Below, piece by piece: positions 9,662 to 22,235 of a DNA stretch of 64,000 nucleotides (positions are counted from its first letter, which is position 1; every line of letters begins with the position of its first letter). This stretch comes from Pseudomonas cavernicola (GTDB taxonomy: Bacteria; Pseudomonadota; Gammaproteobacteria; Pseudomonadales; Pseudomonadaceae): NCBI RefSeq assembly GCF_003596405.1, contig NZ_QYUR01000006.1, positions 744,001 through 808,000 of the forward strand, given 5' to 3'. The notes beneath the pieces were generated by a model, which did no database searches, was not told the DNA's origin, and saw only the letters and a program-made list of their open reading frames with translations. Made by a program: the position numbers and the translations under genes.

Positions 9662-9687
9662 GATGTTGCCCTCAAAACTGCGACCAT

Positions 9688-10290
9688 TCAGCCCAGGTTG
9701 ATAAAGGATTCGGAAGGCTGATGCAGGGAGATCCCTGCGTCGTAAAGCAGATTGACCAATTCAACCACCATGATCGCGGTCAGGCCCCAGATTTTATATT
9801 CGCCATAGCGATAACTCGGTACATACCAACTGCGGCCGAGGTAGTCGATGCGATGAGTCATCTCCCGCGGATCGTCGCGAAAGAACTCCAGCGGCACCGT
9901 GAAGACCGAGGCGATTTCGCCATCGTTGGCCTGATACTCGACGTAAGCGGGGACAATGCCAACATAAGGTGTGACCTGAATGCCGTGCCGCGACACCAGG
10001 CTACTGAGCGGGCCAATCACTTCGACCAAACCCGCCGGCAGACCGATTTCCTCCTGCGCCTCACGCAGCGCGGTATCAATCAGATCGCGGTCTTCCGGGT
10101 CGCGCCGCCCACCGGGGAAGGCGACTTCGCCGCCATGGGTCGACAGACCACTGGCACGCAAAGTCAGCACCAGTTCCGGCGCGTCGCTGCGGGTGATAGG
10201 CACCAGCACCGCCGCCTCTGGGAAGCTATGGTCGGTCTCCAGAACGCGCGGCGTATAGCTGCGCACACGGTGGAGTAGCTCATCGAGCAT
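9688..10290 (-). CDS. NUDIX CoA pyrophosphatase
   Basis: This protein is predicted to cleave CoA and its derivatives to phosphopantetheine and adenosine 3',5'-bisphosphate. The ATG at 10290 ([12 protein letters not shown]) gives 200 residues; longer in-frame starts up to 10362 add a poorly conserved tail. The UPF0035-type block ([20 protein letters not shown]) is followed by the NUDIX box with [13 protein letters not shown] divergent second NUDIX gene begins 170 bases away. Specificity for CoA is inferred from the subfamily motif. Confidence 0.87.
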
Positions 10291-10460
10291 GGGCATTCTC
10301 GGTCTTTTGTTCTGCTCGGCATCATGGCATGAAAGAACCGGCTCGCCCAAGCCCTGCGCCACCAGGTGGCATCATTCAGCAGCGTGACTTTGCCTCCTCG
10401 ACAACTTGCCGCCAAGGCCACCCGCGCGCCAAGATGGACGACGAACACAGAGGATCCGGC

Positions 10461-11015
10461 ATGAAGTTTTGTAGCCAGTGCGGTAGCCCCGTGACGCAGC
10501 GCATTCCGGAGGGCGATAACCGCCCGCGCTTCGTCTGCGTTGAGTGCCAGACCATCCATTACCAGAACCCGCGAATCGTCGCCGGCTGCGTGCCAGTATG
10601 GGGCGAGCAAGTACTGCTCTGCCGTCGAGCGATTGAGCCGCGCCGCGGCTACTGGACGCTCCCCGCCGGCTTTATGGAGAACGGTGAGACCATGCAGCAG
10701 GCTGCCGCCCGGGAAACGCTGGAAGAGGCTTGCGCCCGCGTGCAAGGGCTGAGCCTCTACACCCTGTTCGATCTGCCGCATATCAGCCAGATGCATGTGT
10801 TTTTTCGCGCCGAGCTGGTCGACCTGGACTTTGCCGTCGGCGCCGAAAGCCTGGAGGTGAAGTTGTTCCACGAACGTGACATCCCATGGTCAGAGCTGGC
10901 TTTCCCGACGGTCGGCCGTACCTTAGAATGCTACTTTGCCGACCGGGTAGCGCAGACCTACCCCGTGCGCAATGAGTCCGTTGAGGCCTTGCGCGCGCAC
11001 TACAAGAAAACGTGA
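10461..11015 (+). CDS. NUDIX hydrolase with N-terminal zinc ribbon (NudC-like)
   Basis: This is a 184-residue hydrolase of nucleoside diphosphate-linked compounds. The start at 10461 has GAGGA 6 bases upstream and begins directly with the zinc ribbon, with cysteines at 4, 7, 26 and 29. The NUDIX box follows as GFMENGETMQQAAARETLEE. The layout resembles the C-terminal half of NADH pyrophosphatase NudC but lacks its N-terminal domain, so NADH is only one candidate substrate. Its stop overlaps the GTG of the next gene by 4 bases. Confidence 0.87.
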   Translation: MKFCSQCGSPVTQRIPEGDNRPRFVCVECQTIHYQNPRIVAGCVPVWGEQVLLCRRAIEPRRGYWTLPAGFMENGETMQQAAARETLEEACARVQGLSLYTLFDLPHISQMHVFFRAELVDLDFAVGAESLEVKLFHERDIPWSELAFPTVGRTLECYFADRVAQTYPVRNESVEALRAHYKKT

Positions 11016-11557
11016 CCGCCATGGCGGCTCCGATGACCTGGGATATAGCTCCGATGCGCTGGTTGTTAGCGGTTCTCTGTTTATCTTTTGCCACTTTATC
11101 CCACGCCAATGCCGCGCCGACTCTCGACGGCAAAGCCGTGGACAAGGTTCTAGTGGTGAAATCCGAGCGCAAGCTGCTGCTAATGGGACACGGCCAGGTG
11201 CTGAAGGCCTATCGCGTTTCTCTCGGCAAGCAACCCGAAGGCGCCAAACAGCGCGAGGGCGATCGCCGCACTCCAGAAGGTTTCTATTGGATCGACTGGC
11301 GCAAGAACAGTGACAAATACAACCTGGCCATGCATATCTCCTACCCGAATATCCGCGACCAGGCTAACGCGCGCAAAGAAGGGGTTCCGCCTGGCGGCAT
11401 GATCATGATCCACGGCACGCCATTGGATGAGGAGTACCCGGAGTGGTATTTCCATACCCTGGATTGGACCGAAGGCTGCATCGCCATGAAGAACAGCGAC
11501 ATGCGTGAAATCTGGAATGTGGTAAAAGATGGCACCCTGATCGAAATCCGCCCGTAG
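11012..11557 (+). CDS. L,D-transpeptidase family protein (YkuD domain)
   Basis: This is an exported enzyme predicted to cross-link or modify peptidoglycan through its catalytic Cys. The annotated GTG overlaps the previous gene; the ATG at 11054 would start precisely at the signal peptide MRWLLAVLCLSFATLSHANA. The YkuD domain follows, with HGTPLDEEYPEWYF and the active-site block DWTEGCIAMKN. With 181 residues (167 from the inner start) it is a minimal single-domain member. A hairpin overlaps the stop and a strong terminator follows 57 bases later. Confidence 0.88.
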   Translation: MTAMAAPMTWDIAPMRWLLAVLCLSFATLSHANAAPTLDGKAVDKVLVVKSERKLLLMGHGQVLKAYRVSLGKQPEGAKQREGDRRTPEGFYWIDWRKNSDKYNLAMHISYPNIRDQANARKEGVPPGGMIMIHGTPLDEEYPEWYFHTLDWTEGCIAMKNSDMREIWNVVKDGTLIEIRP

Positions 11558-11613
11558 GGTGGGTGAAACCCACCATCCAGCACCATTGGTGAGTTCCCCC
11601 CTACATCAAACAG

Positions 11614-11641
11614 CAAAAAGGCGCCCTCGAGCGCCTTTTTT
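11614..11641. terminator. Terminator between convergent L,D-transpeptidase and YqfO-like genes
   Basis: The stem AAAAAGGCGC-cctc-GAGCGCCTTTTT is flanked by A and T tracts, so it can act in both directions. A separate inverted repeat, GGTGGGTgaaACCCACC, lies at the L,D-transpeptidase stop codon. Confidence 0.85.
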
Positions 11642-11653
11642 GCTGGATGCATT

Positions 11654-11971
11654 TCAGAAGACCAAGTCCGACAAGCGCCACACCTCGAATGCCGGTGTCT
11701 CGTAGGGATGCGCCGTGCGCAACGCCTTCACCGCGTCGTGGATCAACTCGTCAGCCACCACCAACTCGACTTTCCACTCTGCCACTTGCTCGAGCAGACC
11801 GGCCTGACCGATGAACGGCTGACTGCCCGCCAGCGGCCGGAACTGCCCCTGCCCGAGGGCCTGCCAGCAGCAACTGTCATAGGCGCCGATACGCCCAGCA
11901 CCAGCGGCAAAAACAGCATTCTTAACAACGTCCAGATGAGTTTCCGGGACATAAAAACACAGTTTGTACAA
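11654..11971 (-). CDS. NIF3/YqfO-like domain protein, 5' end replaced by the integrative element
   Basis: This is a small stand-alone YqfO/NIF3-type domain of 105 residues starting (fM)YKLCFYVPETHLD, with AHPYETPAFEVWRL near the C-terminus, the family's conserved end. Its molecular role is not established. The element junction lies in codons 1-7. The original ATG and its GGAG now sit at the other end of the element (21715). Here the reading frame begins at TTG (11971) with GGAGG at 11979-11983, spaced 7 bases, both supplied by element DNA. An in-frame ATG at 12004 would instead add an 11-residue tail. The gene therefore looks expressed from element signals rather than destroyed. Confidence 0.85.
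   Translation of the reverse strand: MYKLCFYVPETHLDVVKNAVFAAGAGRIGAYDSCCWQALGQGQFRPLAGSQPFIGQAGLLEQVAEWKVELVVADELIHDAVKALRTAHPYETPAFEVWRLSDLVF
11952..11970. repeat. attL core, 19-bp direct repeat
   Basis: The sequence taaaaacacagtttgtaca is identical to 21696-21714. It covers codons 1-7 of the YqfO-like gene (read on the minus strand). It is the probable strand-exchange site of the adjacent integrase. Confidence 0.88.
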
Positions 11972-12018
11972 TATTGCACCTCCAGCCCTGCAAACACCGG
12001 CCATTCAAGGGTTTTGAT

Positions 12019-12058
12019 ATATTTTGGGTAGAAATATTGGGTAGAATTGGTGGGTAGA
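12019..12058. repeat. Left subterminal TGGGTAGAA repeats (possible integrase arm sites)
   Basis: Three TGGGTAGAA units are spaced 10-13 bases apart. The first 28 bases (12019-12046) are repeated exactly, in the same orientation, at 21611-21638, and the third unit is nearly matched there. They lie 49 bases inside attL and just upstream of the integrase gene, so they may serve both as arm-type integrase sites and as an operator for its promoter. Confidence 0.7.
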
Positions 12059-12080
12059 ATCCCCCTCCAGTGGTGTCATT

Positions 12081-13595
12081 ATGCCAGCAAAATCCAATCA
12101 CCTTGTGCAGCGCTCCACAACGTGGCATGTCCGCATAGATGTACCCGCCGACCTCCGCCACGCCTTTGGTAATCGTCGAATCCTTAGCAAATCCTTGAAG
12201 ACTGGCGACAAGATGCTGGCCAAGACCATTGCCACTCAAGTGATTGGACAATGGAAAGCTTCATTTAGATCAATACGTGACGCCAAGCTGGCTAAGGGGG
12301 ACGCATGGCGCGAGGAATTGGCAGACAATGCTAAAGCTCTAGGTGCAAGAATCGACAACAGCCTGCTATCAGCGATCAAGAACAAGCCCCACCCTAGCGA
12401 TCCATTCTTTGCACTGTCCGAGGCAGAACAGAATGCAAAACTATCCGAGGCAGCCGCCGACCTAGCTAAAGTCGTGGCCCTCCTTTACAGGGATGGTGCA
12501 ACCAGCCTCCCCTCTGAATTGATCCCCAGCTTGGAAGCTGCCCAAAAGGGCGACAGTATTGGCTTTCTCAGCTCAGCACTTAGCACCCTTCCAACCGCCC
12601 AATCACAGATCATTGCCAGACACTACAACCTGTCTCCCACCGAGGCAGCAGAAGCCCTTTCAATAGCTATCGATCCCAAGACCTATAAACCCAAGTCACC
12701 AATCAGCGCGGGTGCCATTGCAGCATTCAGGCAGCATTACGAAAGCCAGAACGACAACGCCCGCACTACCGCCGTACTCATCAGCAAGCTAGAAGCCTTC
12801 TCCTCATACCTGACCACACAGGTCAAGCCGCTGACGTTCGATACAGTGGCCGAGTACCTGGACACGATCAGCGACAAGCGCCAGACAAGGCAGGGCCACC
12901 TATGGGCCTTGCGCAAGTGGCATAAGTACGCCTGCCGGTATGTTCAGACCTACCGTGATCAGTTCGCCCACCTCCCCAGTCCATTCGCAGAACACACCCA
13001 CGCAAGGGTAGGCAAGGCCGGGGGTGAATCATGGGAAGCGTACACACGACAGGAAGCAGAACAGCTACACGCCGCAGCAGTGGCCAAGGGCGACCAAGAA
13101 TTAGCCGACCTAATCAAGTTTGCTTGTCTGACAGGTTGCCGGATTGAAGAGATTGGACGAATCAGCACCAGCACCACCGTGTTTGACGATAACCACCAGC
13201 CAATCGCTTTTAACGTGGAAGATTCAAAAACTGCCGCAGGTATCCGAACACTACCAATCCACCCGTCATTGCTCCCGCTGTACGTCCAGCGCCTCAAACA
13301 GACGAAGGATGGGTTCTTGTATGCAGCTAAACCAGATGCAGCCGGTAAACGCCTGAACGGCCCACAGCAACGGTTCACCAAGCTCAAGAAGGCCGAAGGG
13401 TTCACAGATCGCCACGTTTTCCATAGTTTTCGCAGCAGCACGGCAACGCAGCTAGAACAAGCCGGGGCCAGTCCACTGGTTATCTCAAGCATTTTGGGTC
13501 ATCGCCGTGGAAGCATAACCTTCGACGTTTACAGTGCAGGCGCTTCACTTGGGCAGAAGGCCGAGGCAATCAAGCTACTTGAGTTCAATTTCTAA
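12081..13595 (+). CDS. Tyrosine recombinase (element integrase)
   Basis: This site-specific recombinase presumably integrates and excises the element at the YqfO-like gene. The 504-residue protein has an N-terminal DUF6538-like segment (STTWHVRIDVPADLRHAFG), a core-binding SAM-like domain (about 210-300) and a C-terminal catalytic domain. Catalytic residues are visible as R in LTGCRIEEIG, H-x-x-R in HVFHSFR, GH in SILGHRRGS and the Tyr in FDVYSAG. It is complete. A hairpin follows the stop. No separate excisionase was recognised; one of the small RHH-like proteins could play that part. Confidence 0.95.
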   Translation: MPAKSNHLVQRSTTWHVRIDVPADLRHAFGNRRILSKSLKTGDKMLAKTIATQVIGQWKASFRSIRDAKLAKGDAWREELADNAKALGARIDNSLLSAIKNKPHPSDPFFALSEAEQNAKLSEAAADLAKVVALLYRDGATSLPSELIPSLEAAQKGDSIGFLSSALSTLPTAQSQIIARHYNLSPTEAAEALSIAIDPKTYKPKSPISAGAIAAFRQHYESQNDNARTTAVLISKLEAFSSYLTTQVKPLTFDTVAEYLDTISDKRQTRQGHLWALRKWHKYACRYVQTYRDQFAHLPSPFAEHTHARVGKAGGESWEAYTRQEAEQLHAAAVAKGDQELADLIKFACLTGCRIEEIGRISTSTTVFDDNHQPIAFNVEDSKTAAGIRTLPIHPSLLPLYVQRLKQTKDGFLYAAKPDAAGKRLNGPQQRFTKLKKAEGFTDRHVFHSFRSSTATQLEQAGASPLVISSILGHRRGSITFDVYSAGASLGQKAEAIKLLEFNF

Positions 13596-13622
13596 CCCAG
13601 CACCAGCACACAGGCTAAACAT

Positions 13623-13658
13623 GCCCCATCTTCCCCTATAACGTAGGGAAAATGGGGC
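13623..13658 (+). terminator. Hairpin after the integrase gene
   Basis: The stem is GCCCCAT-c-TTCCC / GGGAA-a-ATGGGGC with a 10-base loop. It lies 28 bases after the integrase stop and is followed by a moderately T-rich stretch, so it is a likely terminator. Confidence 0.6.
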
Positions 13659-14350
13659 TCTAAAATCGTTTTCTCGCTTTCTCCGTGTCCGACAACACCA
13701 AAACAAGAGAACGCGCAAAACACACTGTTTTTCCCGTATGTTTGTATTTCGTATGGTAGTGAAGTTATCCACAGAGTATGTAAAGTTTATAGAAATAGCT
13801 TTACAGAATTTCAGACCACTGTAGAGTGCTCTACCCGCTTTTGAAAACACCACAGATCGTAGTAGCGGTGTATGATCCACCGCAGATGCTCAGGTAAATA
13901 GAGTAGAATGTAAGAAAGTAGAGAAGATTAAGATCAACAGCGGTATAGCGTTAAGACAAATAGAGACAGAGATTGTGTTAAATTTCCGCTCTTGCGGGTG
14001 ATCTTGGTTGCGTAATCGGCAAAAGAGATTGTATTAGCAGTACCGTTCGTCGCATATTGAAAAATAATGAATTCAATCAAATATGGCTGCGAGCCTTTAG
14101 ATATGCGGGTTTCACTTGTTTAGTATATGTAAGTTAGTTTTCACCCTATTGCAATTTCGTTTGTAAGTATGATACTTTAAACTGACTGAATAAGATAAAG
14201 GTTTGGTGCAAGTATTCCGCAATGGACTTCCTACAATAGCTCTGTCCTTTCGCTCTATCCTCTTGATTCAAACTGTAATACCTCCTCTTCGCTTCACCCT
14301 CTGCTGTAAACAAACGCTGTCACTTACAAGACTGCCAGCGTAAATCAAAA
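13659..14350. other. AT-rich non-coding segment with a DnaA box and small palindromes
   Basis: No credible gene is seen in these 690 bases; the only longer minus-strand frame (13575-13880) runs through the integrase terminator. Visible elements are a perfect DnaA box TTATCCACA (13765-13773), GTAAAG/CTTTAC arms at about 13779-13804, the palindrome GTAGAGTGCTCTAC (13821-13834) and GCGGTG/CACCGC (13864-13882), followed by repeated TAGAG motifs. This could be an origin or a regulatory region, which is inference. The part from 13950 to 14350 is AT-rich without clear structure. Confidence 0.45.
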
Positions 14351-14500
14351 AACTGTAGCCTCGACTTTCCCACTCTGTGGGTTTTGTCGTTCTTGGCGTT
14401 AGATACCGATAGACCTACAGTTATTTTGTTATCGCCATTACACACTGGCATTCAGGTTACCTCATCCCTTCCGGGTGTTGGTGTGTTCTGGCGTTTTGTT
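14351..14500 (+). ncRNA. Putative structured RNA with two stem-loops and T-rich end
   Basis: The first stem-loop has outer arms AACTGTAG (14351-14358) and CTACAGTT (14415-14422), inner CGAC/GTCG and CCCAC-tct-GTGGG. The second (14433-14493) pairs CGCCA-tt-ACACAC with GTGTGT-tc-TGGCG around an inner ATCCC-ttcc-GGGT hairpin and is followed by TTTTGTTT. Symmetric internal loops and a terminator-like end suggest an RNA transcribed toward the small-protein operon. Strand and function are uncertain. No family was recognised. Confidence 0.4.
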
Positions 14501-14563
14501 TACCTTTAATTCGTTATTCCACCCATACAATCTAAACATCACCATTAAAACGGAGGCCTATTT

Positions 14564-14767
14564 ATGGCTGTTATTACCATTCGAAACTGCCTCATGTGCA
14601 ATGCCGAAATGCAATGCACCAGGGCAAGTAAACTAATCTGCTCAAACGTCTGCCACAGCAAAATGCACAAATTCCGTGTAAAACTCGGCCTAACAAATTC
14701 CGAAATGCTCGACATTCTTAAACAACAACAAAAGGAAAATGAAAATGACTCCACCGCAACAAAATAA
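14564..14767 (+). CDS. Small Zn-finger-like protein
   Basis: The 67-residue protein has the cysteine pattern CLMC (10-13), then CSNVC at about 46-50 and a nearby His, suggesting a treble-clef or zinc-ribbon fold. The middle is rich in basic residues and the C-terminus is Gln/Lys/Asn-rich. GGAGG lies 8 bases before the ATG. It is the first gene of the small-protein and replication operon and overlaps the next frame by 23 bases. A DNA-binding or host-takeover role is plausible for such proteins but not shown. Confidence 0.6.
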   Translation: MAVITIRNCLMCNAEMQCTRASKLICSNVCHSKMHKFRVKLGLTNSEMLDILKQQQKENENDSTATK

Positions 14768-14930
14768 GCACTACCCGAGCACACCCCGCGTAAGGCTTCA
14801 CCGTGCACGCCGAAAGCTACAGCTTACTTTTAAAGACTTGTTGTTCAAGCTTGATACAACTGAACAGCTTTTCACCCTTCAAGAGCAGATTGAACAGCTT
14901 TTGATTGAAGCAGAATCAAACCAGCTCTAA
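14745..14930 (+). CDS. Small basic protein of unknown function
   Basis: The protein has 61 residues from ATG 14745, which has AGGA at a usable distance (an ATG at 14739 is too close to it). The N-terminal half is basic (RVRLHRARRKLQ) and the C-terminal half is an amphipathic helix (TTEQLFTLQEQIEQLLIEAE), suggesting a DNA-binding or oligomerising small protein. It overlaps the end of the Zn-finger-like gene, consistent with translational coupling. No family was recognised. Confidence 0.5.
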   Translation: MTPPQQNKHYPSTPRVRLHRARRKLQLTFKDLLFKLDTTEQLFTLQEQIEQLLIEAESNQL

Positions 14931-14965
14931 GCACCCCTCTAAACATCGATCAAAACAGCATTGTT

Positions 14966-14987
14966 ATTAGTGTTTTTCAACACTAAT
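14966..14987. terminator. Perfect hairpin between small genes
   Basis: The 9-bp stem ATTAGTGTT/AACACTAAT with loop tttc lies between the basic protein and the RHH-like array. It may attenuate transcription or stabilise mRNA; there is no strong T run. Confidence 0.4.
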
Positions 14988-15069
14988 TTCATCGAACACA
15001 TCCAAGACAAGCCAACTACAGCTTATTCAGTGTGCGGGATTTTATCGCCTATAAACAAAGGATTTAACA

Positions 15070-15246
15070 ATGAGATCAGATTATCTGTATATCGGTAATG
15101 ACGTATTCAGTAAAGAGTTGATGCTAATCAGCTTGGAAAACCTCCACTACCTGCAACGCCAAGCAATTCTACTGGGCAAGTCGCCAAGTGAATTGGTTAA
15201 TGAATTTATCAACCACAAGAAGAAGGAGGTAGAAGTTAATGAGTAA
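15070..15246 (+). CDS. RHH-like small protein 1 of 4
   Basis: This is a 58-residue reading frame below the usual gene-finder limit. It has AAGGA 7 bases before the ATG and overlaps the next start by 8 bases. A predicted short strand (ELMLISL) is followed by two helices with the pattern LHYLQRQAILLGKSPSELVN, the ribbon-helix-helix layout where a Ser-x-x-Leu-Val/Ile-Asn helix cap begins the second helix. Its tail is Lys/Glu-rich. It is probably a DNA-binding regulator of the element. It is less similar to RHH proteins 2 and 3 than they are to each other. Confidence 0.55.
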   Translation: MRSDYLYIGNDVFSKELMLISLENLHYLQRQAILLGKSPSELVNEFINHKKKEVEVNE

Positions 15247-15421
15247 ACGTAAATGGCCAGATGGTTCAATTCGTCGGCATCAATCCTTCCGTTTATACAT
15301 CGACACTGAGGCTCTCAAGCGTCTTGAAAACTTACCAGATACAGAACACCCATCCTTAAGCTACCTAATTAATGAATTGCTTGAAGACTATCTAACAGAA
15401 AAGGAAAATACAAAACAATGA
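15239..15421 (+). CDS. RHH-like small protein 2 of 4
   Basis: The 60-residue protein has AGGAGG upstream. A basic N-terminus (MSKRKWPDGSIRRHQ) precedes the strand SFRLYID, helix A (TEALKRLENLP) and helix B (SLSYLINELLEDYLTE), the MetJ/Arc-type ribbon-helix-helix layout. The second helix closely matches that of the following protein (LSGLLNELLEDWI), indicating paralogues. It shares ATGA with the next gene. It is likely a dimeric DNA-binding protein, a possible repressor, partition or excision factor. Confidence 0.6.
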   Translation: MSKRKWPDGSIRRHQSFRLYIDTEALKRLENLPDTEHPSLSYLINELLEDYLTEKENTKQ

Positions 15422-15615
15422 GCGTTACACATTACGCCAGCGGTGAACCACGAAAATATAGGACTTGCCGCATTTGCTTAAGCATGAAGTTTGTAAGTGA
15501 ATATGAAGCCATTGAAGGTGACAAGCCTCCGTTGTCAGGTCTTCTGAATGAGCTACTGGAAGACTGGATTATTACTGAACAACTGAAAATCGAATTTAAG
15601 AAGGTGAACAAATGA
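15418..15615 (+). CDS. RHH-like small protein 3 of 4
   Basis: The 65-residue protein overlaps protein 2 by 4 bases and protein 4 by 4 bases. The strand TCRICLS is followed by a helix and the segment PPLSGLLNELLEDWIITEQ, nearly the same as in protein 2. The N-terminus keeps the same basic pattern (GEPRKYR). The two cysteines in the strand are unusual for RHH proteins. It probably arose by tandem duplication and divergence; function unknown. Confidence 0.6.
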   Translation: MSVTHYASGEPRKYRTCRICLSMKFVSEYEAIEGDKPPLSGLLNELLEDWIITEQLKIEFKKVNK

Positions 15616-15803
15616 AATCTAGCATCCGAATCACCCTTAGCGAGCGCTGCACACAAGAGTTAATCAAACTTATGAACCAACTCGATATCGACAGCCCCAC
15701 CCACTGCGTCAATACCATCATCACTGAATACTACAAAAACCATTGTCTATCCCTGAAAGAGGAAAATTCTAATGAATCAAGCAACACCAGCACCAACCAA
15801 TAA
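15612..15803 (+). CDS. RHH-like small protein 4 of 4
   Basis: The 63-residue protein begins MKSSIRITLSERCTQEL, a typical RHH strand start, with helix B at SPTHCVNTIITEYYKNH and a Ser/Asn-rich disordered tail. Its last 32 bases overlap the start of the helicase gene in another frame, so translation of the helicase may depend on it. It could act as the copy-number or operon repressor; this is inference from position and fold. Confidence 0.6.
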   Translation: MKSSIRITLSERCTQELIKLMNQLDIDSPTHCVNTIITEYYKNHCLSLKEENSNESSNTSTNQ

Positions 15804-17034
15804 CAACAAAGCAATTGCTGCCGTAAAATCTCGTTTTGTTCGCCTACCATCTGCTAATACCTACCCTCGTTTCCGTGACATTATCACAGGTATTGAGCAA
15901 GCAGACGCCGCCATTCTTTGCCATTACTACCGCAAGCATAGTAATAGTGCTGACAACACCCCTGAGGCCCAATATCTCGTTAACTGCCTTGAGTGGGTAT
16001 ATGGCGAAGGCTTCCAGCCTAATGCTGGCAATGTAATCAATGGTGGTTTACTAAACCTTTGGAAGCCTTCCAGCATTCAACCAAGCGGCCAGCTTGTTAA
16101 GCCTGAACAAGTACAACCATTCTTAGAATTCCTACGCCGCTGGTTTCCTAATGACCTTGAACGTCAGTATATGGGCTGGTGGCTCTCTCACACAGTACGC
16201 AAACCAGAAGTTAGAATTATCGCCACGCCAGTATTGAGAAGTGAACACGGCATAGGTAAGGGGTTTTTAGTTGAGACTCTGCTTTCTACCCTACTCGGTA
16301 AATCTTCTGTAGCGGTATGCGGCCTAAAGGACGTTGTAGGCGATTTTAACGACGTTGTAGAAGGTAAGACGCTGCTATTGATCGATGAGGTGTACAAGAG
16401 CAAAAAAAGCACTACAGACGCGCTCAAGAGCTTCCAGGGCAACGCCACTATCCCGCTGCACAGAAAGCACAAGCCAACGATCACCATTGATAACTATCTG
16501 AATTTCATCATCACCAGTAATGACCACTTACCGCTAATACTTGAGAAAGGCGATCGCCGCTTTTGGATTCCCGGTTTTATCACTCATAAAGAATCAGTCA
16601 CCGAGACAGCCGAATTTATCAACACGGTGTTGAAGCCTTGGCTACAGAATGAAAATGGTTTTCAGCTTGTGCGGGATTATTTGGAGCAAGTGGATTTGTC
16701 GAAATTCCGCCCAACTGATGCACCACCTATGACAACCAGTAAGCAGGAACTTATGGGCTTTAGCACTACTGACAAGCTGGAAGAGGTGTTAGCGGACGTT
16801 GTAGAGGCTAACAAAGTGCTGACCGTTAAGTGGGTGAAGGATACTTATGGTGGTGATTTTGAGCATGGCTTGTCTGAGATGGCCATTGCTAACGCCTTGC
16901 TTGCAATCGGTTGTAAGCAGCGCCGCACTAAAACCTGCCGGTTCTACATTACTCCCGCTGGCTTTGAGTCGGGGATGTCGTTGGAATCAGGCACTAAAGA
17001 ACTTGAGAAGGGTATGCCCGCACGGGGTTTCTAA
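15772..17034 (+). CDS. SF3-type helicase, DUF5906 primase-helicase family (helicase part only)
   Basis: This is a predicted replication helicase of the element. In the 420 residues, a Walker A-like segment EHGIGKGFL is followed by Walker B TLLLIDEV, the SF3 motif C region NFIITSNDHLPL and the arginine block KGDRRFWIPGF, with a winged-helix-like end (LTVKWVKDTYGGDF onward). The N-terminal 130 residues show no primase or toprim signature, unlike many phage and satellite primase-helicases of this group. The start ATG follows GAGGAAAA and overlaps the RHH gene. A repeat cluster directly after the stop suggests a nearby origin. Confidence 0.8.
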   Translation: MNQATPAPTNNNKAIAAVKSRFVRLPSANTYPRFRDIITGIEQADAAILCHYYRKHSNSADNTPEAQYLVNCLEWVYGEGFQPNAGNVINGGLLNLWKPSSIQPSGQLVKPEQVQPFLEFLRRWFPNDLERQYMGWWLSHTVRKPEVRIIATPVLRSEHGIGKGFLVETLLSTLLGKSSVAVCGLKDVVGDFNDVVEGKTLLLIDEVYKSKKSTTDALKSFQGNATIPLHRKHKPTITIDNYLNFIITSNDHLPLILEKGDRRFWIPGFITHKESVTETAEFINTVLKPWLQNENGFQLVRDYLEQVDLSKFRPTDAPPMTTSKQELMGFSTTDKLEEVLADVVEANKVLTVKWVKDTYGGDFEHGLSEMAIANALLAIGCKQRRTKTCRFYITPAGFESGMSLESGTKELEKGMPARGF

Positions 17035-17040
17035 GCAAAA

Positions 17041-17153
17041 GGTGACACTAAAAGGTGACAGGGTGACAGGTTGGGTGACAGGTTGGTGTTATAGGTGTCA
17101 CCTCTGTAAAGCCCAGTATATGCGGGCTGTAGAGGAAAGGTGACAGGGTGACA
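17041..17153. repeat. GGTGACA iteron-like cluster, candidate origin or operator
   Basis: Six GGTGACA copies lie at 17041, 17054, 17062, 17074, 17139 and 17147, all in the same orientation. Between them is one palindromic variant, GGTGTCACC (17094-17102). Spacing is irregular (8-13 bases, then a 65-base gap). The cluster starts 7 bases after the helicase stop. Iterons near a replication gene are typical of origins; binding by the RHH-like proteins is the alternative. Confidence 0.6.
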
Positions 17154-17364
17154 GCTTTACAGCATCTTTTTCTAATTAGATGTTAGTAAGTCAATAAGAG
17201 CGAAGCGATTATTGACGTAAGCGAAGCGAAAGCTGAGCGTAAGATTCTTTCCCGCCCCTCAAAGGCACATCTAAACAAACAACTAAACCAAAAGAATTTG
17301 ATTCATCAGAATCAATGCACGGGAGCGCTTTGCTCCAAATTCAATAAAAAGAGGTATTACAAAT
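17154..17364. other. Non-coding gap with an inverted and a direct repeat
   Basis: No gene is seen here. TCAATAA (17191-17197) and TTATTGA (17209-17215) form an inverted repeat, and GCGAAGCGA occurs twice (17200-17208 and 17221-17229). A GAGGT ribosome-binding site precedes the next gene. The segment may terminate the helicase transcript or extend the repeat cluster. Confidence 0.4.
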
Positions 17365-17886
17365 ATGAGCAACAAACAAGTAGTTAAGCAAGCAATGGTA
17401 TTCAGTCAAGCTGAGCTTGAGCAACGTCAAGAAGTAGCCAAAGAACGGATTATCTCCGGTTATTACCAAGAATACTCCCACACTGGTGGTCGCTGGGTAT
17501 TCCCCGCCGCCGCACCAACTGAAAGTTTCTCCAACTTTGAAGCATTCCTTGATTTTGTAGGTGAGATGGCCGTAAAGGGCATTAAACGCTTTCCGCACGA
17601 ATCTCCTTGGCACAGCCCTACACTTTGGCAAGTGACATATTACAAGCCAGACAAAGATATTGCAGAACTGATCGAACAAAGCAATCAGGAAGTAGAACAA
17701 GCCTACCGCCAAGAGGTTGAAGATTTTAATCAAGCTCAAATCGACCTGCTGACAGAACAGCTATTTGAACAAGAAAAGCGTAAGCAACAGAAGTTGATCG
17801 AAGAGAAAGAAGCCAAACAGCTTGCAGCAGCCCGTGTCGAGGCTGAGAAGTATGTTAAATCCCAGCTTGCAGCAGGTGCTAAGTAA
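17365..17886 (+). CDS. Element protein of unknown function with coiled-coil C-terminus
   Basis: I do not recognise this 173-residue protein. The N-terminal half (about 1-100) looks globular, with GRWVFPAAAPTESFSNFEAFLDFVGEM and HESPWHSPTLWQVTYYKP. The C-terminal half (about 105-170) is a continuous Glu/Lys/Gln-rich coiled coil with no membrane segment. The start has GAGGT upstream. The next small gene starts 2 bases after its stop, so the two are cotranscribed and may act together. AT content is higher than that of the host. Confidence 0.6.
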   Translation: MSNKQVVKQAMVFSQAELEQRQEVAKERIISGYYQEYSHTGGRWVFPAAAPTESFSNFEAFLDFVGEMAVKGIKRFPHESPWHSPTLWQVTYYKPDKDIAELIEQSNQEVEQAYRQEVEDFNQAQIDLLTEQLFEQEKRKQQKLIEEKEAKQLAAARVEAEKYVKSQLAAGAK

Positions 17887-17887
17887 T

Positions 17888-18157
17888 ATGTCTAATCTAA
17901 TGAACATCCTTAAAGCAAAACACCACCCCGAGCAATACGCAGCAGAACAAGCCAAAAAGAAACAGGAAACAGCTGAGCTACTCGCATTTGTGGACGGGGT
18001 GCTTGCAGAGCATAATCGAAAGAAGGCCGAGGAAGAACAGGACACAGAAGATAAAATTCTCTTTAAGTCTGATCCATCCTCGCCGACTAGCTTCATCCCC
18101 ACCGAGAAGGGGCACCAAGAATTGAAAGAGTCGATCAAGAAACTCTTTCATCGCTAG
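17888..18157 (+). CDS. Small charged element protein
   Basis: The 89-residue protein of unknown function starts at ATG 17888, 2 bases after the previous stop; an upstream in-frame ATG lies inside that gene and is rejected. It is rich in Glu, Lys and Ala with a helical core (AEQAKKKQETAELLAFVDGVLAEHNRKKAEEE) and a C-terminal amphipathic helix (QELKESIKKLFHR). Pairing with the preceding coiled-coil protein is plausible from the tight spacing. Confidence 0.5.
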   Translation: MSNLMNILKAKHHPEQYAAEQAKKKQETAELLAFVDGVLAEHNRKKAEEEQDTEDKILFKSDPSSPTSFIPTEKGHQELKESIKKLFHR

Positions 18158-18280
18158 TCGACGATATTAGCAACACAATATATAGATAGAAAAACAGATA
18201 AACAATTAGGCAGCCACCTCTGGAGACCCCATGTAAACTGGCCTTGATAGCATTCTTGCTAAACCGGATAGCTTCTCCCT

Positions 18281-18296
18281 ACACAATATATTGTGT
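18281..18296. promoter_or_regulatory. 16-bp perfect palindrome, possible operator
   Basis: ACACAATATATTGTGT is a perfect palindrome in the gap between two element genes. A partial copy (ACACAATATATAG) lies at about 18173-18185. It is a possible site for one of the RHH-like proteins or a resolvase. Confidence 0.4.
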
Positions 18297-18308
18297 TTTC
18301 AATCAAAC

Positions 18309-18342
18309 AAAACAGCTCAGCCTAAAAACCTGGGCTGTTTTT
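18309..18342 (+). terminator. Terminator after the small charged gene
   Basis: The stem AAAACAGC/GCTGTTTT with an inner AGCC/GGCT-type pairing is followed by TTTT. It ends the 17365-18157 transcription unit just before the small membrane-protein gene. Confidence 0.65.
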
Positions 18343-18349
18343 ACATCAA

Positions 18350-18649
18350 ATGGTTAAATTTACAATGCCCAACACTAATTATTGGCATGTGCTCAACACT
18401 TTCTTGAAGCTCACGAACACCATTGCTCTAGGTCTGATCTGTTTTCTTATCTACAACCCTCAACCCCAAGCAGAAACACCTAGCGACCTGTCGGCTGTAC
18501 ACAAGCGGATAGACGGACTCATAACATACAGTGACTCTAGAATTAATGGAGTTGCAGATAAGCTAGATACCTCCATCTCAAGACTGGAATCTAGACAGTC
18601 CATCATCGAGCAGAAGATTAAAATCATTGAAGAACGGAGGTTTAAATGA
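18350..18649 (+). CDS. Small single-pass membrane protein with coiled coil
   Basis: The 99-residue protein has one hydrophobic segment (about residues 18-41, LKLTNTIALGLICFLIY). A soluble tail with a heptad pattern follows (VHKRIDGLITYSDSRINGVADKLDTSISRLE). I recognise no family. It resembles phage or element spanin- or holin-like small proteins only in layout. No convincing ribosome-binding site is seen (it starts within the terminator tail), so expression is uncertain. Confidence 0.45.
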   Translation: MVKFTMPNTNYWHVLNTFLKLTNTIALGLICFLIYNPQPQAETPSDLSAVHKRIDGLITYSDSRINGVADKLDTSISRLESRQSIIEQKIKIIEERRFK

Positions 18650-18684
18650 TTTTAATCTGGTGAATCATCGAATGTCTTAACGGG

Positions 18685-19647
18685 TTAAAGTCTACATCTA
18701 AATAGGTAATAGATAAATCCGCCTGCAAGGGCGACGCTGTGTACAGCTCCAAAAAGTAGCGAGTAGGTGAGTAATGCGGGATCAGTAAGAGTGCTTGAGT
18801 AAATAGCTAATCCTGCCCATATCGCAAGCAAGATAGGCCCAAGGAGTATTGCAAAAACTCGTAACGGGGTGGAGGTGCACTGCCATTTAAACTTAAGTTC
18901 TGCGAGCAGTGGAAGGCGTGCTGATGAGTATTCTAACCAGACCTCTTCATACGCAAGGGTTTTCTGACTAACCATACTTTCTTTTTCCTTTAGTGCAGAG
19001 TTTACATTTGCTGCCTGATTTCGGATCTTTTTAACAATCTCCCCTTGCTGCCGGAGAAACTCAGTAACGCTTTCGTTTCTTGAGCCCCTAGCATTGATCG
19101 CATCGCGGAGCTTTCGAAGGTTCTCTTCAAGCTTGATTTCCGCAACAAAAGACCATGCATAGCCCGGCCCTGCAACCTCAAATTCAAGTTGGCGAGTATC
19201 TATTTCGCGTATTTGTGTTTTTACTTCGTTCTTACGCGTGGCAAGCACGCCAGCAGCAGCGCCTACAGGCCCCAGAAGCACGCCACCGACTATCCCGCCA
19301 CCTAAGCCGCTTTTCTGCTTGCTGCTAACGTCGCTCACTTGCTGGAGGCTGCCATGCTGAGTCAACTTTGCTTTGGCGTCCTTAATAGGTCCGCTGTATC
19401 CTGGAAGGTCAATCCAAAATTCATAGATTTTGATTGCTCCCTCTGATCCAAGTAAGGCTCCCCTGCCGGATTCAAGATCTTTCAAGCGAGCAAGCTCAAA
19501 GTCTAGTGTCTGCTGGAGACTGCTCAATAGCTCTTTAGTTTCTTTGTACTCAATCTGGGACGCTTTGAGGAGTTTCCGCTGATGAAGTACCTGTGCACGG
19601 AGTACCATCGCTGAGTCTTGTCGTAATTCTAGCTCTTGGGTTTCCAT
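18685..19647 (-). CDS. Cargo protein with coiled coils, glycine zipper and two C-terminal membrane segments
   Basis: I do not recognise this 320-residue protein. Visible parts are an N-terminal coiled coil (about 1-60), a Gly/Ala-rich zipper (114-135, GLGGGIVGGVLLGPVGAAAG) that could insert in membranes, a second coiled coil (about 170-245) and two strong transmembrane segments (263-285 and 291-315). It is in reverse orientation to the replication genes, so it has its own promoter. Membrane-active proteins of this layout on small elements are often defence or exclusion factors; that role is a hypothesis here. Confidence 0.6.
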   Translation of the reverse strand: METQELELRQDSAMVLRAQVLHQRKLLKASQIEYKETKELLSSLQQTLDFELARLKDLESGRGALLGSEGAIKIYEFWIDLPGYSGPIKDAKAKLTQHGSLQQVSDVSSKQKSGLGGGIVGGVLLGPVGAAAGVLATRKNEVKTQIREIDTRQLEFEVAGPGYAWSFVAEIKLEENLRKLRDAINARGSRNESVTEFLRQQGEIVKKIRNQAANVNSALKEKESMVSQKTLAYEEVWLEYSSARLPLLAELKFKWQCTSTPLRVFAILLGPILLAIWAGLAIYSSTLTDPALLTYSLLFGAVHSVALAGGFIYYLFRCRL

Positions 19648-19700
19648 ATCAGCATCTCCTAGCAGTTACATCGTGCTTTCTGCTGGTCTTTTCTTAGAGG

Positions 19701-20024
19701 CTATTTCAGTCTAATGATTTCCACATCATGGAGGGGGCGTAAACTACTCTTGTACGCCCCGTACGTGATTTTACCTACTTCAGCGCTCTCTAAATCTTCT
19801 GTAGTAGGGTCGTAGTTATCGTCGCTTGGGTGGCCTACTACTTTCTTGCCAGTGAGGATTGCAATGTTGGCTTTTGTAGCCAAGTCTCTCATTGCATCTA
19901 CCCACAATGGGCTATACGGGGAAAAAAGCCGTGGATCGATTTCAACCTCTCCTTGATAAGACTCTCCAGTACCTAATCCCGGTCCTACCGTGAGCTTGTA
20001 GTACGTGTGCGAATACTCAGCCAT
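19701..20024 (-). CDS. Element protein of unknown function upstream of the cargo gene
   Basis: The protein has 107 residues from ATG 20024, chosen because GAGGGA lies 6 bases upstream; an in-frame TTG at 20030 overlaps that site's spacer. The sequence is soluble and acidic, with LTVGPGLGTGESYQGEVEIDPRLFSPYS and AYKSSLRPLHDVEIIRLK. The next gene on this strand (the membrane cargo) starts 53 bases after its stop, so the two may form a two-gene unit. No family was recognised. Confidence 0.55.
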   Translation of the reverse strand: MAEYSHTYYKLTVGPGLGTGESYQGEVEIDPRLFSPYSPLWVDAMRDLATKANIAILTGKKVVGHPSDDNYDPTTEDLESAEVGKITYGAYKSSLRPLHDVEIIRLK

Positions 20025-20262
20025 TTCCAATCCCTCGGTTGTTTGTGGTAAGGGCAGATTGCCAGCAGCCAGCGGTTAGAAGCAAGCTGTGTCTGGCTTG
20101 CAGGCTTATGCACACACACTAAGGTAGTCACGGTGCTTCGCTCCCTCCCCATCGCGAATGCTCGCATGCCGTGGGGCATCTTTTCGTCCCTCATCCCCCC
20201 GCCTGTGCATCCAGAAGCTAACAGCAGCCGCTGCAAGCATGGAGTTCGTGTCTCGTCCTTCT
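20025..20262. other. Intergenic stretch before the resolvase control region
   Basis: There is no credible gene in about 240 bases. The sequence is closer to host composition than the replication module. It should hold the promoter of the minus-strand two-gene cargo unit, but I could not fix one. Confidence 0.3.
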
Positions 20263-20377
20263 GGTGTCATAAACGACCGTTTTTGAACCTACCTGTATTT
20301 CGAGCTTAACTAGTTTCACAAAATAGGGTTTGCACTTATGACACCGACAGGTATAATGAACCTACCTTTATGACACC
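20263..20377 (+). promoter_or_regulatory. Resolvase promoter with repeated operator or res-like sites
   Basis: TTGCAC (20330-20335) and TATAAT (20352-20357) are 16 bases apart and point to the resolvase gene. The motif GGTGTCATAA occurs three times: once forward (20263-20272), once inverted between the -35 and -10 boxes (20336-20345), and once inverted just below the -10 box (20368-20377). GAACCTACCT also occurs twice. The layout suggests autorepression and perhaps a recombination (res) site. Confidence 0.6.
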
Positions 20378-20392
20378 AAAGAGGAATCAGGC

Positions 20393-20953
20393 ATGAGCCG
20401 CTCCTTCCTTTACTGCCGTGTATCAACCGCAGACCAAACCACTGCCAACCAAGTTAAGGAAGTGAAAGCAGCCGGCTTTGATATTCAGCCTCAACGCATT
20501 GTCGAGGAGACTATCTCAGGTAGCACCAGCACCAGCGAGCGTAAGGGCTTCCAAAAGCTTCTTGAGCGTATGGAGAGTGGTGACGTTCTGGTGGTCACTA
20601 AGCTAGACCGTCTTGGCCGTAATGCCATCGACGTGCAGAGCACAGTGCAGATGCTAGAAGGTAAAGGTATCCGGGTTCACTGCCTCGCCTTGGGTGGCGT
20701 AGACCTCACCTCATCAACCGGTAAGATGACAATGGGCGTCCTCGCCGCTGTAGCAGAGTTTGAGCGTGATCTACTCATCGAACGTACCCAAGCTGGTCTT
20801 CAGCGCGCAAAGGCAGAAGGCACCACCCTTGGCCGTCCTGCTGCGACGAGCAAGGATGCAGTACAAGCACTGAGGCTTGAGGGTATGAGTCAGAGTCAGG
20901 TAGTTAAGGAACTTGGTGTAAGCCTTTCTACAGTTAAACGTCTATGGGCTTAG
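20393..20953 (+). CDS. Serine recombinase, resolvase/invertase family
   Basis: The 186-residue small serine recombinase has an N-terminal catalytic domain with Y-C-R-V-S-T (nucleophile Ser11, Arg9), the conserved KLDRLGRN and EFERDLLIERTQAGLQRAKAEG, and a C-terminal Hin-type helix-turn-helix (MSQSQVVKELGVSLSTVKRLWA). It is full-length. Such enzymes resolve dimers or invert segments. With no transposon ends visible, multimer resolution of the excised replicating circle is the most likely use. It has AGAGGAA upstream and a good terminator downstream. Confidence 0.93.
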   Translation: MSRSFLYCRVSTADQTTANQVKEVKAAGFDIQPQRIVEETISGSTSTSERKGFQKLLERMESGDVLVVTKLDRLGRNAIDVQSTVQMLEGKGIRVHCLALGGVDLTSSTGKMTMGVLAAVAEFERDLLIERTQAGLQRAKAEGTTLGRPAATSKDAVQALRLEGMSQSQVVKELGVSLSTVKRLWA

Positions 20954-20987
20954 CCACTACCCACCAGCACAACACACCACACACAAG

Positions 20988-21011
20988 AAAGCCCCTTAGT
21001 CGGGGCTTTTC
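20988..21011 (+). terminator. Terminator of the resolvase gene
   Basis: The stem AAAGCCCC/GGGGCTTTT with loop ttagtc and a trailing T run lies 35 bases after the stop. Confidence 0.85.
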
Positions 21012-21012
21012 T

Positions 21013-21444
21013 ATTGCGGGAAATAGAGCCATTTGAAGGGCTTTCAACATCACCCAAGCCCCTGCACGGAATGAAGCCAATCCCTTCAGTCTGAACGCTC
21101 TAGCCCCTGATAAATTGGGTTAATGCCCCATGCCTGGGCTACGTCAGCGGGTACAGCAGAGAGGGGCGACGATATTTGATTATCCTGTGACCGCACCACC
21201 CGACGCCCGTCCGTATAGCTTGACGATGGGTCGCCCGCGCCAAGTAAATCAACAGAACCATTCCCCAGGTGCATCGATATTTTCAGCCCATCCCCTACAG
21301 ATTATTTCTCACAGGCACACAGGCTGAAAATTGGGGCTGGTGGTATGCCTTGCGGCAGGGGGCTATGTAGGAAGCACCACCTCTTCACGCATTATCAGCA
21401 CGCAGTCAGGCGCTTCCTGACTACCACCAATCAAGGAGCGAACT
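21013..21444. other. Non-coding stretch between resolvase and CsrA-like gene
   Basis: No credible gene is seen. A 10-bp inverted repeat, ATTTTCAGCC (21279-21288) and GGCTGAAAAT (21322-21331), encloses 33 bases and could be a protein site or an RNA stem. Decayed coding sequence is possible, but I see no recognisable fragment. Confidence 0.3.
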
Positions 21445-21636
21445 GTGGGCAGACTTGCACTGACAAGGAAGGAAGCGCAGGGGCTTAGATTTACGATCAA
21501 GCCTGAGCATGTGGCAGAGCTGGGCGACCTGATCCGCGACGGCATCACCATTACCTTTATCGACTTAGATAGAAGTACAGCCAACCGGATGCATCAGGAC
21601 GCTTGCAGCGATATTTTGGGTAGAAATATTGGGTAG
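21445..21636 (+). CDS. CsrA/RsmA-like translational regulator, probably C-terminally altered
   Basis: The GTG start has AAGGAG 6 bases upstream. The 63-residue product starts MGRLALTRKEAQGLRFTI, matching the LxLTRxxGxxLxI start of CsrA/RsmA proteins, and continues DGITITFIDLDRSTANRMHQDA, similar to the second strand pair and RxxIxAP core. An insertion of about 12 residues separates the two, as in CsrA-like proteins of genomic islands. The usual AP-x-x-I-x-V-x-R end is degenerate (ACSDILGRN) and the last codons run into the 28-bp subterminal repeat. RNA binding is therefore uncertain. Confidence 0.5.
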   Translation: MGRLALTRKEAQGLRFTIKPEHVAELGDLIRDGITITFIDLDRSTANRMHQDACSDILGRNIG

Positions 21637-21650
21637 AAAGGCTGGGTAGA
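21611..21650. repeat. Right subterminal TGGGTAGAA repeats
   Basis: The first 28 bases are identical and parallel to 12019-12046, and a third TGGGTAGA unit follows with altered spacing. They lie 45 bases inside attR and overlap the 3' end of the CsrA-like gene. Confidence 0.7.
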
Positions 21651-21695
21651 TAATGCAGCAAACTATTGATATATAATGGCTTTTCATAAGACCAT

Positions 21696-21714
21696 TAAAA
21701 ACACAGTTTGTACA
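21696..21714. repeat. attR core, 19-bp direct repeat
   Basis: This is identical to attL at 11952-11970. Read on the minus strand with the adjoining base it gives ATG-TAC-AAA-CTG-TGT-TTT, the authentic first codons of the YqfO-like gene. The element then supplies TAA, leaving a six-codon stub. Confidence 0.88.
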
Positions 21715-21877
21715 TCAAACTCTCCGCAAGGAAATGGCAGGGTAAACAGCAACCAACAAATGATGGCACTTTGCCTTGAGTCGACCAAGCGGCGCAGTTC
21801 ACAAGTCTGTAATTGGACTTACCGACAGCCGCAGCGTTCAGCCAGACATAGAGCGCTTAGCCATAAGCCGCAGCAGC
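21715..21877 (-). promoter_or_regulatory. Displaced 5' region of the YqfO-like gene
   Basis: This is the original upstream region, now separated from its gene by the element. It keeps GGAG (21722-21725), 6 bases before the ATG at 21713-21715. It follows the CDGSH gene on the minus strand, indicating that the two genes were neighbours before integration. Confidence 0.65.
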
Positions 21878-22216
21878 CTAATACCCGACCCAGAAGCGTC
21901 GCCACTTAGCGGTTAGTGAAGGTGCAGGCGGATTGTGACTGCCATCGCAATACGGCAGACGCCTGGATTGGCCGCAGCGACAGAGCAATAGATGTTGCTC
22001 ACGCGCGATCGGCACGCTCAACCCCAGCGAGCAGTCGGCAGAGCAGTCAGGTAATTGCGGCGAGCTGCCGCAGGTACACAGCCGTAAGGTCGCACCCGGC
22101 TGAACCAGGCGCACCTCAGGAAGGATGGGAAGAACAGCGGGCGTTAAGGCCTGGGTGAAAGCGGCTGTATTCGGAGACCCGACGCTTTCACCCGGGCAGA
22201 CCGGCGGCTTGCGCAT
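21878..22216 (-). CDS. CDGSH iron-sulfur domain protein
   Basis: This small protein is predicted to bind redox-active 2Fe-2S clusters. Two CDGSH-type units are visible: a degenerate one (CTCGSSPQLPDCSADC) and a canonical one (CRCGQSRRLPYCDGSH). The end LTAKWRRFW is typical of bacterial members. The ATG at 22216 has GAGG 7 bases upstream and gives 112 residues, but its first 34 include a hairpin region. A GTG at 22114 giving 78 residues better fits the family length. The start is therefore uncertain. It follows purL by 20 bases on the same strand. Confidence 0.75.
   Translation of the reverse strand: MRKPPVCPGESVGSPNTAAFTQALTPAVLPILPEVRLVQPGATLRLCTCGSSPQLPDCSADCSLGLSVPIAREQHLLLCRCGQSRRLPYCDGSHNPPAPSLTAKWRRFWVGY
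22153..22193. terminator. Inverted repeat downstream of purL
   Basis: The 11-bp arms GGGTGAAAGCG and CGCTTTCACCC are perfect and enclose 19 bases. No T run is present, so this may be an mRNA-stabilising or attenuating hairpin or a REP-like unit rather than a true terminator. If it terminates purL, the short start of the CDGSH gene is favoured. Confidence 0.45.
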
Positions 22217-22235
22217 GCCGGCGCCTCTTGACGGC

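Follow-up and report, generated by a model that had tools for sequence, protein, structure and literature searches.

The 64,000-nt stretch of Pseudomonas cavernicola contig NZ_QYUR01000006.1 analysed here (the window, whose positions serve as coordinates throughout) carries a 9.76-kb element between two copies of the 19-mer TAAAAACACAGTTTGTACA, inserted into a gene which we take to be yqfO (Nif3/YqfO-like). With a probability of roughly 0.55, this element is an integrating, circularly replicating helper-phage satellite belonging to a modular Pseudomonas family. Its integration into yqfO is shown at the level of sequence, circular replication from a helicase–iteron unit is probable, and mobilisation by a phage is suggested by analogy with relatives. 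A first-pass annotation had described an integrative element with a replication module but of unrecognised type; the element and its module are supported, and the type needs to be changed, since the element is one member of the modular family described below. In the following, G-numbers denote the genomes compared, L-numbers the loci compared and C-numbers contigs.

Insertion into yqfO

There are exactly two copies of the 19-mer in the window, at 11952–11970 and 21696–21714, against a mean of 0.00 in shuffled sequence (n = 100), and the positions given for these att repeats in the first-pass annotation were right. The G+C content is 0.47 inside the element versus 0.60 (9000–11951) and 0.62 (21715–25000) in the flanks. 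The features of the borders are as follows.

11952..11970, no strand: attL, 19-bp core repeat lying within the yqfO 5′ end; the G093 empty site has it once
21696..21714, no strand: attR, 19-bp core repeat, adjoining the native yqfO ATG
11654..11971, − strand: yqfO coding region as restarted by the element, with a TTG start at 11971–11969 and an element-supplied GGAGGT at 11983–11978
12025..12058, + strand: three TGGGTAGA arm-type repeats, left, 13-bp spacing
21617..21650, + strand: three TGGGTAGA arm-type repeats, right, 13-bp spacing
12081..13595, + strand: tyrosine integrase, 504 aa, DUF6538 and Phage_integrase; R/K/HxxR/GH/Y motifs present

An uninterrupted site, which had been named earlier as a check on the insertion, was found in Pseudomonas genome G093, where a one-piece alignment covers positions 4–907 of the 907-nt joined flanks at 83% and contains the 19-mer once. 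At least 12 places among the matches listed reach at least 250 nt past the joined-flank junction on both sides. The two exact repeats and the uninterrupted site in G093 thus show that the insertion is real and precise, and the element combines an integrase (Phage_integrase 59.0 bits, DUF6538 53.0 bits, as previously called), direct repeats and a matching empty site, as an integrative element does. The subterminal repeats reported before are also real: TGGGTAGA stands three times at each end, with nine copies in the window versus a shuffle mean of 0.70, and these triplets match the layout of integrase arm sites. At the end of the related element in G164, TTCTACCCA occurs twice with an equal 13-bp spacing.

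Read on the minus strand, the left 19-bp repeat falls within the first yqfO codons, and the native yqfO start ATGTACAAACTG sits at the right element end, beyond attR. The left element end reads GGAGGTGCAATATTGTACAAACTG, a strong Shine–Dalgarno sequence and a TTG in frame with yqfO, and the native start has therefore been replaced by this pair. With the new start plainly present in the left end, yqfO would be expressed from it and so kept alive.

Contig C5 of the host genome (L005, 14115 bases) was considered as a free circle and rejected. It is an inverted repeat of window positions 9001–16876 with many indels, and because this inverted duplicate includes host DNA it is counted as an assembly artefact, probably a long-read palindrome.

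Replication core

The genes and sites of the core, including the resolvase, are listed here; ORF stands for open reading frame, RHH for ribbon–helix–helix and SF3 for superfamily 3.

14564..14767, + strand: 67-aa zinc-finger-like protein with a CxxC...CxxxC pattern; L035, L036 and L040 each have a match at 46% over 35 residues; no Pfam match
15239..15421, + strand: RHH (Arc/CopG-like) protein, 60 aa; PHROG RHH 2.1e-4
15612..15803, + strand: RHH-slot ORF of 63 aa, sharing 32 nt with the start of the helicase gene; in four relatives its counterpart also overlaps the helicase
15772..17034, + strand: SF3/DUF5906 helicase, 420 aa; Walker A/B and downstream motifs, predicted C-terminal winged helix
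17041..17153, no strand: iterons, directly 3′ of the helicase, spacing conserved in relatives
17190..17216, + strand: conserved hairpin GTCAATAA-GAGCGAAGCGA-TTATTGAC, read from an alignment of five elements
17365..17886, + strand: 173-aa coiled-coil protein, whose gene marks the wider family
20263..20392, no strand: res-like site with repeated GACACC/GGTGTC boxes, upstream of the resolvase
20393..20953, + strand: serine resolvase, 186 aa; 135 bits, catalytic motifs

The SF3 helicase and the resolvase of the first-pass annotation both hold up, the former with a DUF5906 score of 65.1 bits, and the catalytic motifs are all kept in the integrase, the helicase and the resolvase. A profile built from the helicase and three relatives gave only two PDB matches at E ≤ 0.01, both to chains named Primase (6k9e and 6k9c, E 5.5e-12), which we take to be the phage NrS-1 protein. 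P4 alpha and NrS-1 are types of replication protein that the window helicase resembles in its SF3 helicase part and predicted C-terminal winged helix; it differs from them in being only 420 aa long, and no primase domain was recognised in it. The RHH array proposed before is borne out in part: the 60-aa ORF is RHH by PHROG (its Pfam score of 19.4 bits lies slightly below the cut-off of 20.5) and a second ORF fits the RHH slot of the relatives, but the array is only partial because its two other ORFs are unrecognised.

Seven of the element's eight GGTGACA copies lie inside 113 bp beside the helicase gene, which is the arrangement of tandem conserved iterons next to a replication gene that marks an iteron-controlled replicon. 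L035 and L036 preserve the iteron spacings of 8, 12 and 73 nt, and L042 the last two of these; L040 has GGTAGACA or GGAAGACA at the places aligned to the iterons. The hairpin follows the iterons in all five aligned elements, the window stem being longer on both sides. Its loop contains GCGAAGC at 17200–17206, a sequence that forms a very stable DNA mini-hairpin and that is kept in L035 and L036. We infer that the iterons and hairpin 3′ of the helicase form the replication origin. The serine resolvase likely resolves multimers. In the res-like region, GATACC/GACACC boxes are repeated in nine loci with the same resolvase type, ACGACCGTT being exact in six of the nine and AAATAGGGTTT in four, with near matches in most others.

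Relatives sharing the helicase or the integrase

Among 298 Pseudomonas genomes, 28 have some match to the helicase, only three of them at 70% or more, the window's own included; outside the genus none was found at E 1e-20 in 293 genomes of the order. The four close helicase relatives (L035, L036, L040 and L042; 70–74% identity) include loci added from GTDB contigs of P. izuensis and Pseudomonas sp. CFBP 13711, and another is that of P. poae DSM 14936. In all four, the small genes, the RHH gene, the helicase and the coiled-coil gene follow one another as in the window element, and a resolvase is present, so that the window element and its relatives have in common a zinc-finger gene, an RHH gene, the helicase, iterons 3′ of it, the coiled-coil gene and the resolvase. 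The RHH-slot ORF overlaps the helicase start in five of five helicase loci. Three of the relatives lie at tRNA-Ser(CGA) with 18–21-bp repeats and 7.5–10.3 kb between the repeats, and the P. poae relative carries a large serine recombinase, with no integrase from the family of the window element's. Because the same core occurs at tRNA-Ser(CGA) and, once, with a large serine recombinase, integrase and site are exchangeable and the core is not.

The integrase is more widespread, with some match in 84 of the 298 genomes. Apart from its own, the closest (50% identity, G164) also lies beside yqfO, and G270 retains a 1.9-kb remnant at yqfO with 17-bp repeats and a truncated integrase, so that related elements at the same gene, as sought by the first-pass annotation, number two. 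The 25 further integrase loci contain a tRNA-Ser gene (22) or a tRNA-Leu gene (3), and a repeat at the tRNA was found in four of the four integrase loci where it was looked for. Ten of 26 integrase loci, G164's among them, encode a zinc-finger protein of 335–503 aa. An RHH ORF overlaps the start of its gene in five loci, as happens with the helicase of the window element, and a zinc-finger ORF does so in three; L093 and L100 show neither type of overlap, and in L100 the profile search does detect an RHH gene there. This arrangement suggests a replacement replication protein in the helicase's place, for which no homologue of known function was found. An alignment of the replacement proteins shows invariant C, H, N and H residues reminiscent of an HNH nuclease.

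A wider family marked by the coiled-coil gene

A profile of the coiled-coil protein matches 49 places in 43 of the 298 Pseudomonas genomes. Of these places 48, together with two GTDB loci, make up 50 coiled-coil loci, which were compared with 13 integrase loci without the coiled-coil gene. The helicase is present in five of the 50 and a replacement protein of at least 300 aa in 24, giving one or the other in 29/50 versus 0/13 contrast loci (Fisher 1e-4, the loci not being independent). A second small recombinase lies in the stretch in 46/50 versus 6/13. Profiles find an integrase or large serine recombinase in 36 of the coiled-coil loci, and clustering adds a large serine recombinase in three more (L126, L128 and L148). 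Several coiled-coil loci (L126, L128, L134, L148 and others) have the large serine recombinase in place of a tyrosine integrase, and tyrosine recombinases of 184–191 aa occur in other coiled-coil loci, often without a serine resolvase. An RHH gene was detected by profile in 21 of the 50, and in 16 of the 29 with helicase or replacement protein. The 21 loci with neither of these encode, in some cases, conserved proteins of 262–286 aa.

A tape-measure-like gene is found in 12 of the 50 coiled-coil loci versus none of the 13 contrast loci, and in all 12 cases it lies 3′ of the coiled-coil gene and in the same orientation, at a distance of −3 to 2313 nt. The L079 protein matches TMP_3 (50.6 bits, cut-off 41) and also PHROGs, that of L093 reaches 41.6 bits, at the cut-off, with no PHROG at 0.001, and those of L136 and L145 are recognised through PHROGs. 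In L138 the gene is split into two frames, and it stands outside the 11 proteins scanned. In favour of the satellite reading, 17 HK97-capsid and 12 TerL matches in the 43 genomes all lie at least 0.6 Mb from the coiled-coil loci or on other contigs, in a test that covered these two families.

A broader picture, tentative and of somewhat less than even probability, is that of a large Pseudomonas satellite family, present in about one in seven species genomes, in which a fixed core (zinc finger, RHH, coiled-coil, resolvase) persists while integrase, replication protein and tape-measure gene are swapped like cassettes. Some members would build hybrid tails around a tape measure of their own, and window-type members would use a minimal SF3 helicase–iteron unit together with the helper's whole tail.

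Circular forms and phage records

The helicase matches 10 plasmid records, four of which (6.5–9.3 kb, helicase identity 24–28%) were read for gene content. pKP-2683-1-6.5 of K. pneumoniae (6.5 kb) and pIsolateG_E of C. freundii (9.3 kb) carry the helicase plus a resolvase-type recombinase, and pW47-1 of P. mirabilis (9.0 kb) carries the helicase and a clear tape-measure gene (PhageMin_Tail, 130.8 bits). These three and pMP1, small circular DUF5906 records, differ from the window element in being annotated as free plasmids; no integrase stands in the gene tables of the small helicase plasmids, which are incomplete per PLSDB. The records support circular replication by such helicases and tie one of them independently to a tail gene.

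In IMG/VR, one 34-kb contig (L112, L113) combines a siphophage-like tail module with adjoining genes of the family, namely those for the zinc-finger, RHH and coiled-coil proteins, the resolvase and the integrase. A P. aeruginosa record (L111; NZ_CP137508.1, 60090–79040) that is labelled a plasmid encodes a recombinase and a replacement-protein homologue next to tail genes; it looks chromosomal because minCDE and a tail cluster are present.

Proposed life cycle

As a helper-phage satellite, the intact element would be recombined by its integrase through the 19-bp core into the 5′ end of yqfO with the use of three arm repeats per end, and its left end supplies a new ribosome site and TTG start, which would allow yqfO to survive. 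After excision, the SF3 helicase would very plausibly copy the circle, acting at the iterons and hairpin that follow the helicase gene on its 3′ side. The RHH protein whose gene spans the helicase start would, again very plausibly, be a regulator or accessory factor. Priming would have to come from the host or the helper, because no primase domain is recognised in the element. The serine resolvase may split multimers at the res-like site upstream of its gene. Transfer would consist of packaging into helper-phage particles, for which some family members (this copy not among them) may supply their own tape-measure protein. The coiled-coil protein, encoded upstream of the tape measure, is a possible partner in tail assembly or helper take-over.

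Evidence against and alternative explanations

Several observations weigh against the satellite reading. A circular junction, which the first-pass annotation had led one to expect, was not found in the assembly, nor was a multicopy contig. The ORF scans support the earlier statement that recognised transfer and structural genes are missing: no capsid, terminase, tail or lysis gene was found among the element's scanned ORFs, and a tape-measure gene occurs in none of the five helicase-type loci, the window included. Searches with the coiled-coil protein model gave no matches. Only four of the 11 scanned tape-measure-like proteins (L079, L093, L136 and L145) are recognised by public models; those of L090, L092, L139, L143, L147, L149 and L152 matched no public tape-measure model (Pfam was run on L090 and L092 only) and belong by the family profile. 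The family counts come from loci picked by sequence search, some of which were also used in profile building. Megablast against 50,697 phage records gave no match, helicase and integrase probes found no close relative in IMG/VR, and the element on the 34-kb IMG/VR contig may just have integrated next to a prophage. The protein of pMP1 annotated as 'phage tail protein' matches no tape-measure model. The capsid and terminase test of the 43 genomes is limited by draft contig ends. The element's own genome has no PF05065 or PF03354 match anywhere, and therefore no resident helper of those families.

The element could instead be a chromosomally integrating plasmid-like replicon, i.e., a cryptic plasmid that has an integrase and no specialised helper and whose rare spread would depend on transformation, generalised transduction or co-integration with a plasmid. 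Helicase and resolvase modules are known from small circular plasmid records, which are non-mobilizable by MOB-suite, a homologue of the replacement protein lies on the 6-kb plasmid pA6H2 (which also has a RepB gene), and the window element has no transfer genes. However, the tape-measure-like genes of the core-sharing loci and of the P. mirabilis plasmid are hard to explain without phage particles, and this explanation is judged unlikely, though a serious one. The same genes narrow the helper-mobilised element of the first-pass annotation, there called satellite or integrative mobilisable element (IME)-like, towards the phage satellite. An IME would be moved by a relaxase acting in trans on an unrecognised oriT, and integrase relatives do lie near MobA/VirD2-type relaxases in five loci (L094, L099, L103, L105 and L106) with tRNA-Ser or tRNA-Leu in the stretch, two of the proteins matching Pfam Relaxase and three clustering with those two. 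However, these five loci yielded neither the coiled-coil gene nor the helicase or the replacement protein, and no relaxase was found among the window element's scanned ORFs; the five are probably IMEs that have only the integrase in common with the window element, for which this route appears improbable.

Decay of a larger prophage with loss of its head, tail and lysis genes would accord with the resemblance of the helicase to phage primase-helicases and with the joining of the core to a siphophage tail module on the IMG/VR contig. Against this stand the intact att sites and recombinase motifs and the compact gene order shared by five helicase loci, with 7.5–10.3 kb between the repeats in three, and such an origin is considered very improbable.

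Comparison with known systems

The PICMI (phage-inducible chromosomal minimalist islands) of Vibrionaceae resemble the window element in their small size (6.1 kb for the PICMI prototype), integrase, DUF5906- or DUF3987-type replication protein, short direct repeats and lack of capsid-remodelling genes (PMC10803314). The PICMI model described there makes AlpA mandatory and places integration at fis (PMC10803314). The window element has the integrase and a DUF5906/DUF3987-type primase gene but differs in its site at yqfO, its Pseudomonas host, its extra resolvase, RHH and zinc-finger genes and its coiled-coil core. It differs also in AlpA, which was not found among the element's scanned ORFs, the genome's only PF05930 match lying on another contig, C3. 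PICI, cfPICI and P4-like satellites are marked by an AlpA or Stl-type regulator, a small terminase, and capsid or polarity genes, and none of these was found among the scanned ORFs.

The PLEs of Vibrio cholerae encode tape-measure and tail-chaperone genes (tmp, tac) that are conserved across PLEs, and form hybrid tails; according to a 2026 study, a tape measure had been reported from no other satellite, and the same study presents putative further cases in its Extended Data Fig. 10 (PMC12987554). Some members of the Pseudomonas family resemble the PLEs in having a tape-measure-like gene of their own (PMC12987554). The window copy and its four helicase relatives differ from PLEs in having no such gene, in a comparison made without a search for PLE genes by name. 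The PLE integrase is a large serine recombinase, the type also used by one relative of the window element.

The tmRNA-site Pseudomonas islands I23, I44 and I55 (Zhao et al.), of which I55 is moved by a jumbo phage, share with the window element the host genus, the presence of cargo, direct repeats and a tyrosine integrase, and the lack of recognised transfer genes, but differ in their tmRNA site, in having been found via alpA or a shared end sequence, in often carrying RadC and YqaJ, and in a size of <20 to >70 kb (PMC12595487).

Remaining genes

The other features of the element are given below; the cargo sits between the core genes and the resolvase.

13596..14563, no strand: AT-rich leader that contains no long ORF and resembles the relatives little
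14739..14930, + strand: small ORF, 63 aa, no Pfam match
15070..15246, + strand: small ORF, 58 aa, no recognised family
15418..15615, + strand: small ORF, 65 aa, alone, no recognised family
17888..18157, + strand: small conserved ORF, 89 aa, 48% over 58 residues in L040
18350..18649, + strand: 99-aa coiled-coil protein, probably anchored in the membrane; in L079 the tape-measure gene is followed by one of similar design (21% identity)
18685..19647, − strand: cargo, 320-aa protein with glycine-rich and hydrophobic stretches
19701..20030, − strand: cargo, ORF of ~107 aa, weakly similar to an L079 ORF (39% over 66 residues)
21445..21636, + strand: 63-aa ORF, weakly RsmN/CsrA-like

The last of these had been called CsrA-like. 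Its best two PDB matches are indeed RsmF and RsmN, but because these stand at E 0.44 and 0.53, which is not significant, and no Pfam CsrA match was found, the identity is suggestive, a hint only. Defence-like cargo was seen in related loci, namely a reverse transcriptase (L101:5151–6752), an N6-methylase with an HsdR-like N terminus (L104:11128–13617) and an Mrr-type nuclease (L040:13130–14758).

Significance

No title or abstract describing this family was found in a literature search with most subscription papers and all bioRxiv preprints outside its scope, and the family of small Pseudomonas islands is apparently undescribed so far. Taken alone, the window copy would be a neat but ordinary small island; it is the family behind it that deserves attention. 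Many small unexplained islands could be read as one family with exchangeable parts, and if these are satellite-like, tail piracy would be testable in tractable, non-clinical Pseudomonas strains.

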